This document shows, in pieces, positions 1,451 through 3,821 of a stretch of 64,000 nt of DNA. The DNA lies in assembly GCA_028867785.1 (NCBI GenBank), contig JAGWFS010000004.1:62001-126000 (forward strand), in the 5' to 3' direction. Each line of letters starts with the position of its first letter. Position 1 is the first letter of the stretch. The notes beneath the pieces were generated by a model. It made no database searches. It worked only from the letters and a program-made list of their open reading frames with translations, and was not told the origin of the DNA. Position numbers and translations under genes: made by a program. Source of the DNA: Nitrososphaerota archaeon. GTDB lineage: Archaea > Thermoproteota > Nitrososphaeria > Nitrososphaerales > Nitrosopumilaceae.

Positions 1451-1512
1451 ACTTCCGTTAACTCATCGAGGTTTTCATAACTGAAATTCTTCGTGTTAAC
1501 TTTCGAGGTTTG
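1451..1512 (+). repeat. left terminal inverted repeat of the IS
   Basis: It starts ACTTCCGTTAAC and contains a second GTTAAC exactly 38 bases after the first. The reverse complement of 3752-3813 has the same layout; 45 of 62 positions match by hand count, with 19 of the innermost 20 identical. The two GTTAAC boxes per end could be transposase binding sites. Confidence 0.8.
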
Positions 1513-1553
1513 GGATCATTTTAAATCCAAATCCAAGCTTTCCAAACTGAGAA

Positions 1554-2138
1554 ATGAACCGAATAACACCACGAGAAATCATACTGACCATAATTTCAGT
1601 CATTCTGGCAGGGATTACGGGGTACATCGTAAATTGGAACGTTAGCACATTGATCGCAAATCAAACTGTTATTGCTTATTTTCTCTTAGGTGGAATCATA
1701 GCATCATTAGTTTATGGATGGAAGCCCCGACTAGAAAGATTCTTTGAGAAACATGAAAATCACGAAAAAAAGGAACTTTACAAGAAAATCCATGAGGAGT
1801 TGAAGGACGCCATAGAATCTCTTGATAATACCCTAGAGAGGGATACTTACAAAGTTGAGGTTCAAGGTAAGGAGATATACTGGAAACATATCTTCATGAA
1901 TCATGCAGTTTATGATAGTTCGATTTATTCAGGAGATTTTAACCAGATAGATCACAAATTACAACAACCTATACAAGACATCTATGGAAAAATCAACCTT
2001 CATTATCAAGGCGTGAAAAAAATAGTTGATGATCGTGAGAACGCTGTTGAACAAGCTCCAATTCTAGACGGATATGAAAAAGAATTACGCAAGGATATTC
2101 CTACAGTCATGAATGAATTAAAAAAATATTTTCAATAA
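1554..2138 (+). CDS. membrane-anchored coiled-coil passenger protein of the IS
   Basis: This 194-residue protein has two hydrophobic segments near the N-terminus (about residues 9-27 and 38-55), then a long charged, mostly helical cytoplasmic part rich in Lys and Glu. No catalytic motif is visible and I do not recognise a family. A TATA-like ATTTTAAAT lies about 28 bases before the ATG, inside the element and just past the left inverted repeat, so the gene has its own promoter. It converges on the small gene at 2143-2328. Its position makes it cargo; a role in host interaction or in an addiction or defence function is speculation. Confidence 0.7.
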   Translation: MNRITPREIILTIISVILAGITGYIVNWNVSTLIANQTVIAYFLLGGIIASLVYGWKPRLERFFEKHENHEKKELYKKIHEELKDAIESLDNTLERDTYKVEVQGKEIYWKHIFMNHAVYDSSIYSGDFNQIDHKLQQPIQDIYGKINLHYQGVKKIVDDRENAVEQAPILDGYEKELRKDIPTVMNELKKYFQ

Positions 2139-2142
2139 AGTG

Positions 2143-2328
2143 TTAGTCATCAGATATAGGTTTAGAACTAACCTTTGTTATTTTTGCACTCGTAACAGGT
2201 GGGGCATTTTGGCTCCCCTTGAATGGTATAGAAGGGGCATTCACTGATTCTTGTGCTTTTACTATTGAAGGTGCGTTTCCACTACCCCCAAGAGTTGATC
2301 GGCTAATCTTTGGTGTGTCGTCTGCCAT
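2143..2328 (-). CDS. small repeat-containing hypothetical protein (IS passenger)
   Basis: Sixty-one residues, low complexity, with three spaced copies of an N-A-P-(S/P)-(I/V) motif and many Ser, Lys and Pro residues; probably unstructured. A TTTAAATA box about 20 bases upstream and a GAGG before the ATG support expression. It ends four bases from the stop of the convergent membrane-protein gene. No family is recognised. Confidence 0.5.
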   Translation of the reverse strand: MADDTPKISRSTLGGSGNAPSIVKAQESVNAPSIPFKGSQNAPPVTSAKITKVSSKPISDD

Positions 2329-2380
2329 AAGACATATTCCTCATTTTCTTATTTAAAATGTGGGATTGATTGTTAGTAAA

Positions 2381-2521
2381 CTACTTGTTACTTCTTAGAT
2401 ATTCACTTAGAATAACTCTGATCGTTTCGGGTACCGTTTCAAGCAATCTTTCTTTACGCTCTCTTTCCAATACTTTTACCATCTCATCAGGTAGTGATAC
2501 CATTATTTTCTTCATTGCCAT
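2381..2521 (-). CDS. ribbon-helix-helix (CopG/Arc-type) DNA-binding protein
   Basis: This 46-residue protein starts MAMKKIMVSLPDEM and ends EYLRSNK. It has the ribbon-helix-helix plan: a short beta strand (KKIMVSLP), a helix (DEMVKVLERERKERL), a turn and a second helix (TVPETIRVILSEYL). Such proteins dimerise and bind short palindromes. Two perfect palindromes (2533-2546 and 2567-2584) lie between its start and the divergent transposase start, so it probably represses both itself and the transposase. It is also the size of antitoxins of this fold, but no toxin-like partner is adjacent. Confidence 0.8.
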   Translation of the reverse strand: MAMKKIMVSLPDEMVKVLERERKERLLETVPETIRVILSEYLRSNK

Positions 2522-2532
2522 AATACCATTAG

Positions 2533-2584
2533 ATACCAATCGGTATATTTATTAATTGCTATGTAGATACCTATTGGTAGGTAT
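2533..2584. promoter_or_regulatory. twin palindromic operators in the RHH/transposase divergent promoter
   Basis: Two inverted repeats share a core: ATACCAATCGGTAT at 2533-2546 and ATACCTATTGGTAGGTAT at 2567-2584. Both fit ATACC-N4-GGTA. The AT-rich stretch between them (TATATTTATTAAT) can serve as TATA box in both directions. The spacing places one site before each gene, as expected for autoregulation by the adjacent RHH protein. Confidence 0.7.
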
Positions 2585-2591
2585 TGGAATA

Positions 2592-3785
2592 ATGGTCATA
2601 AACAGAAAAGAGATCCAAACAAGAGAAATGAGAGCACTGACGATAGTTGGCCAGTCAGATCAAATCAAGCGGATTAACGCTGTCACTTACAAAGTAAAAT
2701 CCCAAAATTCTGATTGCTGGTATGATGTTATCCATGTATACAAACATGGGTGGACTTGCACGTGCAATGATTTTCTTTTCAGACATGAGAGAGTAGGCGA
2801 CTGCAAGCACATTCAGGCAGTCTACATTTCAAAGGAACTACGCCACAAGGTACTGGCAAACAATGACGTCAAGGAGATCGAATCAGACAACAAGCTAGTC
2901 TGCAACTGCGGTTCTCTTAACATAATCAAGATAGGAATCAGGCACAACAAGTCAGGCGATATGCAGGTTTTCAAGTGCAAGGAATGTAGCAAAAAGTGGT
3001 CTGATAATCTAGGTTTTGCAAAGAACAGGATAGATTCGAAGATAATTACTGTAGCACTAGACCTTTACTTCAAGGGAATATCACTTAGAAAAGTAAAGGA
3101 ACATGTCAAACTATTCTATGGAATCTCAGTAAGTCATGTAGCTATTCTAAAATGGATTCACAAGTTTGGCGAGGTAGTAGCACCCTTTGTTGATTCTTTA
3201 GTACCTAAAGATGTATCAGGCGTGTATCACGTTGACGAAATGATGGTTCACGTAAGAAAGGAACAACATGAAAAGGGTCACTATCAATGGCTTTGGAATA
3301 TGATGGATAACACAACACGCTTCTGGATTAGTTCAAAGGTATCTCAAAGAAGGGAAGTCTCAGATGCAAGGGCAGTCTTTCAGGATGCCAAGAGAAAGAC
3401 GCCAACACCAATAGCTATAGTTCATGATGGCCTACCAACATACAACGAAGCCTATTGGAAGGAATACTATACCATGGAAGGCAAGAGAGTCAAGAACATC
3501 AGATCGGTATCAGTAAGGCATGACGGTCTAAACCAAAAGATCGAGAGGCTAAACGGCGTCTTTAGAGACAGAGAGAAAGTAATGAGAGGCATGGATCACA
3601 AGGAATCCGCACAGAAGTTAATTGATGCTACTAGAATACACTACAATTTCATCAGAGAACACGGTTCAATCAAGAAGACTCCTGCGGAACAAGCTGGGAT
3701 TAATCTAGACTTGGGACAGAACAAAATTGAAGGCTTGATCAAGCTGGCCAGCAAACCCCGAAAGTTAACACAGACAACTTTATGA
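2592..3785 (+). CDS. DDE transposase with N-terminal SWIM zinc finger
   Basis: From the ATG at 2592 the protein is 397 residues. It opens with a SWIM-type zinc finger (C56, C58, C71, H73), followed by a zinc ribbon (C104, C106, C129, C132), a helix-turn-helix region, and a DDE catalytic core with D215 (HVDEM), D279 (VHDG) and E318 (QKIERLNG), the layout of IS6-type enzymes. A start at 2556 would put the second operator inside the coding region, so 2592 is preferred. The C-terminal codons overlap the right inverted repeat. The gene appears intact and the flanking duplication is perfect, so it may still be active. Confidence 0.9.
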   Translation: MVINRKEIQTREMRALTIVGQSDQIKRINAVTYKVKSQNSDCWYDVIHVYKHGWTCTCNDFLFRHERVGDCKHIQAVYISKELRHKVLANNDVKEIESDNKLVCNCGSLNIIKIGIRHNKSGDMQVFKCKECSKKWSDNLGFAKNRIDSKIITVALDLYFKGISLRKVKEHVKLFYGISVSHVAILKWIHKFGEVVAPFVDSLVPKDVSGVYHVDEMMVHVRKEQHEKGHYQWLWNMMDNTTRFWISSKVSQRREVSDARAVFQDAKRKTPTPIAIVHDGLPTYNEAYWKEYYTMEGKRVKNIRSVSVRHDGLNQKIERLNGVFRDREKVMRGMDHKESAQKLIDATRIHYNFIREHGSIKKTPAEQAGINLDLGQNKIEGLIKLASKPRKLTQTTL

Positions 3786-3813
3786 AGACAAATCTCATTA
3801 AGTTAACAGAAGT
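3752..3813 (-). repeat. right terminal inverted repeat of the IS
   Basis: Reverse complement begins ACTTCTGTTAAC and ends GGGGTTTG. It overlaps the last 34 bases of the transposase gene. See the left repeat for the match count. Confidence 0.8.
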
Positions 3814-3821
3814 ATCTGACA
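3814..3821. repeat. right 8-bp target-site duplication (ATCTGACA)
   Basis: Exact copy of 1443-1450, directly abutting the right inverted repeat. Confidence 0.85.

Follow-up and report, generated by a model that had tools for sequence, protein, structure and literature searches.

A probable exchangeable repressor–operator cassette in an archaeal IS6-like transposon

The window, i.e. the whole 64,000-nucleotide stretch of DNA from an ammonia-oxidising Nitrososphaerota archaeon that was analysed here, contains a transposon of 2,363 bp at positions 1451–3813. The element has the ends ACTTCYGTTAAC, imperfect inverted repeats of 62 bp and an exact 8-bp duplication on its flanks. The gene for a 46-residue ribbon-helix-helix (RHH) protein is therefore located inside an insertion sequence, as had been claimed in an earlier reading made from the sequence alone. 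This gene diverges from the transposase gene, and the gap between the two is filled by palindromic sites. The features of the locus are as follows.

1443–1450: left copy of the 8-bp target-site duplication ATCTGACA, repeated exactly at 3814–3821
1451–1512, plus strand: left terminal inverted repeat (ACTTCCGTTAACTCATCGAGG...), pairing with the reverse complement of 3752–3813
1554–2138, plus strand: passenger gene (ORF) for a 194-aa protein with N-terminal membrane segments and a coiled region
2143–2328, minus strand: small Ser/Pro-rich ORF of 61 aa beside the RHH gene
2381–2521, minus strand: RHH regulator of 46 aa (MAMKKIMVSLPDEM...; profile matches, conserved start), predicted to repress itself and the transposase
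2523–2535: candidate third operator site ATACCATTAGATA, degenerate, fitting the conserved consensus ATAYC-N4-GRTA
2533–2546: putative operator palindrome ATACC-AATC-GGTAT on the RHH side, based on window search, shuffles and conservation in relatives
2548–2556: TATA-like AT-rich box TTTATTAAT, a candidate promoter element (forward match, conserved in the promoter alignment)
2567–2579: putative operator palindrome ATACC-TATT-GGTA on the transposase side, based on window search, shuffles and conservation in relatives
2592–3785, plus strand: IS6-like DDE transposase of 397 aa with an N-terminal SWIM zinc finger and a zinc ribbon (Pfam, NCBIfam)
3752–3813, minus strand: right terminal inverted repeat, pairing with 1451–1512
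3814–3821: right copy of the target-site duplication ATCTGACA, an exact repeat of 1443–1450

The transposase, which starts at the ATG at 2592, matched Pfam DDE_Tnp_IS240 with 48.5 bits (cut-off 27). It was also aligned over its full length with NCBIfam transpos_IS6 (E=1e-29), but with 103.5 bits it remained below the cut-off of 125. The CxC...CxH and CxxC motifs, as well as D215, D279 and E318, were invariant in 24 relatives. Like the IS6 family (IS26, IS257, IS240; PMC7986276), the elements described here have the IS240/IS6 DDE domain and 8-bp target duplications, and their ends GGTTCTGTnAAG bear some resemblance to the GG...TGT ends of IS6 elements. In contrast to that family, they measure 2–5 kb instead of ~0.8 kb, they encode transposases of ~370–400 aa with a SWIM and zinc-ribbon N-terminus, and they carry a divergent predicted repressor gene along with variable passenger genes. 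A single short transposase ORF that fills the element is an IS6 trait, whereas the 2,363 bp of the present element hold a 397-aa transposase and three other ORFs, and it is therefore termed IS6-like and passenger-carrying. For the 194-aa passenger, no Pfam or NCBIfam match above cut-off and no confident family were found, and a homologue with 56% identity is encoded in the related element L016. The 61-aa ORF, which may also be a passenger gene, had neither a Pfam or NCBIfam family match nor a homologue in the other elements. At the same place, L016 has a 54-aa ORF of similar composition with a 'SVNAP' stretch in common, the match not being significant. In its host genome the full-length element is single-copy, and a deletion remnant of a related element, consisting of a left inverted repeat (76%) plus the C-terminal part of a transposase (68–73%), occupies ~500 bp on contig C66 of this genome (23751–24237; L002, L003).

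The sequence-only reading had reported ATACC-N4-GGTA twice between the divergent genes, and this was confirmed at 2533–2546 and 2567–2579. Matches to ATACCNNNNGGTA were located at 2533–2545 (plus strand)/2534–2546 (minus strand) and at 2567–2579 (plus strand), and these were the only ones in the 64-kb window. By chance, 0.17 matches to ATACC-N4-GGTA would be expected in the window, and three matches were reached in 0 of 100 shuffles. The two palindromes stood, but a third site, ATACCATTAGATA (2523–2535), overlaps the first palindrome, and the consensus is looser than originally given (ATAYC-N4-GRTAT). The offset of the overlapping sites is 10 bp, which would be the spacing expected of RHH dimers packed on successive helical turns. 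The TTTATTAAT box sits between both operator groups and is usable from either strand. Throughout the set of related elements, TATA-like boxes between palindromes were not enriched (21 versus 17.4 in shuffles), and the promoter geometry is therefore specific to the RHH group of the window element. A host-wide regulon of the RHH protein was rejected, since GATACCN4GGTA is present three times in the whole 2.55-Mb genome and just once outside 2533–2546 and 2567–2579.

The RHH gene starts with the ATG at 2521, which is conserved in 13 relatives, and the predicted length of 46 residues was borne out. The assignment to the RHH family agrees with profile matches: the protein matched Pfam RHH_1 with E=9e-4 and 19.5 bits, just below the curated cut-off of 20.5, and a close relative scored 20.8 bits, above this cut-off. 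PDB profile matches were obtained with AvtR (E=0.006) and MetJ (E=0.04). An AlphaFold model of the monomer, one long helix (pTM 0.36), was uninformative, the RHH fold being one that needs a dimer. The predicted strand aligns with KKITVSIP of MetJ, in which Lys23 and Thr25 contact bases. With MetJ, Arc, CopG and the archaeal virus protein AvtR (4hv0), the protein has in common a strand-helix-helix sequence with a KKITVSIP-like recognition strand and tandem palindromic sites spaced by roughly one turn of the helix. It differs from them in its size of 46 aa, the lack of an effector domain and its dedication to a transposon, and from MetJ also in that the position equivalent to Thr25 varies with the operator type. 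A chromosomal RHH paralogue (MVKKYFLTVTDEM...; 54–55% identical) is present in the same genome (L180:1498-1635, contig C88) and at L239, L240, L242 and L243. Several genomes of the genus contain it, with neither a transposase nearby nor ATAYC-N4-GRTAT sites, and it is possibly a domesticated copy.

Relatives of the element were found in Nitrosotalea, Nitrosopumilus, other Thaumarchaeota, Bathyarchaeota, Methanoperedens and Thermoplasmatota, and the comparison set consisted of 110 non-redundant related archaeal elements, many of them from metagenome assemblies. Terminal inverted repeats with an exact 8-bp duplication were detected for 36 of these 110, versus 1 of 110 in a control with the right flank reversed. 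The ends mostly read GGTTCTGT..., and the subclade of the window element (ACTTCYGTTAAC) keeps CTG/CYG without the GG tip. A divergent small predicted DNA-binding protein was encoded in the same position in 90 of the 110 elements, the clusters being RHH-, AbrB/MazE- or zinc-ribbon-like. The promoter contained a significant tandem palindrome in 56 of 110 elements, versus 1 of 110 in the coding control, and in about half of the set the strict scan gave no significant tandem palindrome. Examples of the palindromes are TAGGTACCTA, TCTACGTAGA, TCCACGTGGA, TACTAnTAGTA and ATCGTACGAT. Regulators of the KLQK and SLRTT types scored above the MazE_antitoxin cut-off. The PKWKK type had no Pfam match; its model was beta-beta-alpha-beta-beta, with weak top Foldseek matches to VapB, MazE and AbrB-N. 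The AbrB-like regulator of L155 and L163 matches or clusters with DUF2080, 'putative transposon-encoded protein' (PF09853), and an association with archaeal transposons has thus already been noticed for one regulator type. At the repressor position of 14 elements, including L057, L070, L076, L134 and L174, a zinc-ribbon protein (CxxCxHxW.PR...CPKCKSPYWNKPR) was observed, with ACCTAnTAGGT/TAGTAnnnTACTA sites nearby.

Relatives that retain the RHH gene also keep the palindromes, as the M-type RHH elements preserve ATAYC-N4-GRTAT even when their transposases are 36–41% identical to that of the window element. Across 19 M-type elements, the half-site columns were better conserved than the remaining promoter (0.83 versus 0.59, p=9e-5), and the motif was present in 0.6% of shuffled promoters. 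The position equivalent to Thr25 of MetJ proved to be informative: with Met, Leu, Val or Ile at this position, 20 of 25 promoters contained the motif, compared with 0 of 8 for Thr (Fisher p=9e-5, which is optimistic because the sequences are related). L099, L100 and L039, which are of the Thr type, carry candidate sites of the GCTATAGC kind although their transposases share 79–81% identity with that of the window element. Close relatives lacking ATAYC-N4-GRTAT thus have both a changed RHH recognition strand and another candidate site, GCTATAGC, as the idea of operator–RHH pairing predicts. Both RHH types are even found in one genome (L038 versus L065), on transposases that are 84% identical. 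Together, the half-site conservation and the residue switch support, at the level of sequence, the earlier suggestion of a built-in transposition control by a putative self-repressing regulator inside an insertion sequence.

The pairing of operator and regulator extends beyond the RHH group. Among 51 elements, operator similarity tracked regulator similarity with the transposase removed (partial Mantel r=0.52, p=0.0002), although kinship among the sequences inflates some p-values and part of the correlation is linkage, because the cassettes are inherited as blocks. With the regulator removed, operator similarity was unrelated to the transposase (r=-0.04, p=0.77). The KLQKQ-type AbrB regulator is found with TAGGTACCTA in Nitrosopumilus, Bathyarchaeota and Methanoperedens, on distant transposases, while the KLQKRF/VNR AbrB type pairs with TAGGYRCCTA-type sites, KLQKRFAYKY with TATGGYRCCATA and KLQK..DH with TATGACCCCATA. 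Strong operators next to the transposase but no divergent regulator characterise L126, L094 and L132; as predicted, a search with the KLQK profile located a KLQK-type regulator elsewhere within each of these elements. In L126 and L132, the same operator precedes the distal regulator gene, at a distance of 1.8 kb (L126) and 1.06 kb (L132) from the promoter of the transposase; in L094 the exact motif was not found at the promoter of the regulator. Distal regulators that share the operator of the transposase suggest that the transposase promoter is a target of the regulator and not just adjacent to it.

With 10 regulator classes mapped by parsimony onto a quick tree of the transposases, a minimum of 54 changes of family was counted, or 39 if only changes of fold are considered. 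Where the transposase DNA was homologous but the regulators were unrelated (400 pairs), the median onset of homology was +52 nt relative to the transposase start, and only 1 pair matched at all upstream; in 78 pairs with like regulators, the median onset was -192 nt. Even in the best-conserved pairs with mismatched regulators (82–87% DNA identity), homology started between +6 and +48. The reverse situation was encountered between the window element and L016: the identity of their transposases is 41%, but they have in common the passenger gene, the RHH gene and the operator (69–76% DNA identity), with the similarity ending beside the transposase start. These breakpoints, together with the L016 case, indicate that the exchanged unit is a cassette of ~200 bp comprising regulator and operators. 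The locus first noticed belongs to a system that spans the archaea and whose exchangeable regulators are of several folds. If these regulators defined immunity groups, coexisting elements would be predicted to avoid the same regulator, but 4 of 47 within-genome pairs shared one, versus 4.2 expected, and at the strictest threshold there was an excess of near-identical copies. Escape from resident repression, attractive as it is as the driver of exchange, was therefore not supported by the within-genome test. That this archaeal IS6-like clade is controlled by interchangeable repressor–operator cassettes of unrelated folds, swapped repeatedly at the transposase start codon because the new repressor would free an element from silencing by relatives already present, may be true, but we propose it only tentatively.

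In our view, the locus is likely to be an IS6-like transposon with a built-in exchangeable repressor cassette, and we infer that the RHH protein binds, represses and affects transposition in the following way. RHH dimers would insert their beta-ribbon into the ATAYC-N4-GRTAT sites that flank the TATA-like box (2548–2556), and the bound protein would shut both its own promoter (autoregulation) and that of the transposase. Low basal expression would then yield a self-limited repressor and a silent transposase. The latter would be made mainly in a burst, either upon entry into a repressor-free cell or when the repressor falls. The cassette of ~200 bp, with the regulator gene and the operators and ending at the transposase start codon, would be the exchangeable module, and related archaeal elements combine this kind of transposase with different cassettes, in which the regulator is another RHH protein, AbrB/MazE-like or a zinc ribbon.

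Conceivably, the palindromes could instead be bound by the transposase itself, as subterminal or autoregulatory sites, with the RHH gene as a bystander. Some transposases, such as IS1 InsA and OrfA of the IS3 type, do repress their own promoter, and the palindromes adjoin the transposase start. However, the palindrome sequence tracks the regulator and not transposase similarity, transposases that are 80% identical have different sites, and the same operator lies before distal regulator genes. The transposase as the binder was rejected by the partial Mantel test, and we regard this explanation as highly improbable. It is very unlikely, too, that the small proteins serve as the antitoxins of a type II toxin–antitoxin cargo and that transposase control is incidental, even though RHH and AbrB/MazE are antitoxin folds and Tn3 elements carry exchanged toxin–antitoxin pairs by their transposition genes (PMC7157771). 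No toxin family was detected among the neighbouring ORFs in the window (Pfam/NCBIfam), the scanned passengers of sister elements are mostly non-toxin, the exceptions being two elements that carry a Fic protein and an AAA ATPase, and the operators are positioned directly at the transposase start. Chance palindromes or functionless inherited remnants could be suspected in an AT-rich region for which only two exact copies had been reported, but the shuffle tests, the coding-region control, the conserved half-sites and the residue–operator switch make this hardly credible. Finally, the direction of regulation is unreadable from sequence, and the RHH protein might activate the transposase promoter or act mainly on its own gene. 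We consider this quite unlikely: the sites separate the TATA-like box from each of the two start codons, a position from which archaeal regulators usually obstruct polymerase or transcription factors, and RHH proteins of such small size that have no additional domain, like CopG, Arc and MetJ, generally act as repressors.

Compared with known systems, a repressor cassette exchanged as a block is reminiscent of the immunity regions of lambdoid phages, where repressor and operators are swapped together in a constant background and with different specificities. Here, too, the predicted repressor gene and its operators are exchanged together, but in an insertion sequence, not a phage, and the within-genome test gives no evidence of selection for different specificities. 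In the open-licence literature, we found no description of repressor exchange in insertion sequences, but only of toxin–antitoxin exchange in Tn3. To our knowledge, the exchange of operator and regulator has not been described for DUF2080 elements. The Tn3 study (PMC7157771) describes small RHH, AbrB and other regulators by the transposition genes that were acquired and exchanged several times, as is the case here. The Tn3 modules differ in that their breakpoint is a res site and not the transposase start, and operator–regulator covariation is not reported in the parts consulted; moreover, no toxin partner was found here. As far as consulted, a thaumarchaeal mobilome survey lists insertion sequences without such regulators, and a review of the IS6 family describes the control of transposase expression as little known and lists one passenger-carrying member (PMC7986276). 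We therefore rate self-regulated insertion sequences as a known kind and exchangeable repressor–operator cassettes as the new feature. Bacterial IS6-family elements spread much antibiotic resistance while the control of their transposase is little known, and a large group of archaeal relatives now offers an apparent and testable control circuit with dozens of natural repressor–operator pairs. From such pairs, rules for the specificity of very small RHH and AbrB proteins could be derived, and they could serve as ready-made orthogonal switches in archaea. They also open a first opportunity to examine if transposons, like temperate phages, diversify their repressors as a means of escaping one another.

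The passenger genes differ in nearly every element (L164, L100, L114, L062 and L081 among the sister elements). They encode, for instance, an N6-methylase-like protein of 705 aa, a Fic protein, a proteasome-like subunit and many membrane proteins, as well as an AAA ATPase near the NsnB/AriA defence families and a GmrSD-HNH nuclease near NsnA. IS6-like elements may thus be carriers of defence and other cargo. One element of the archaeal group, L138, was found on a contig labelled Gammaproteobacteria bacterium BBSC-SA02, reflecting either contamination or cross-domain transfer.
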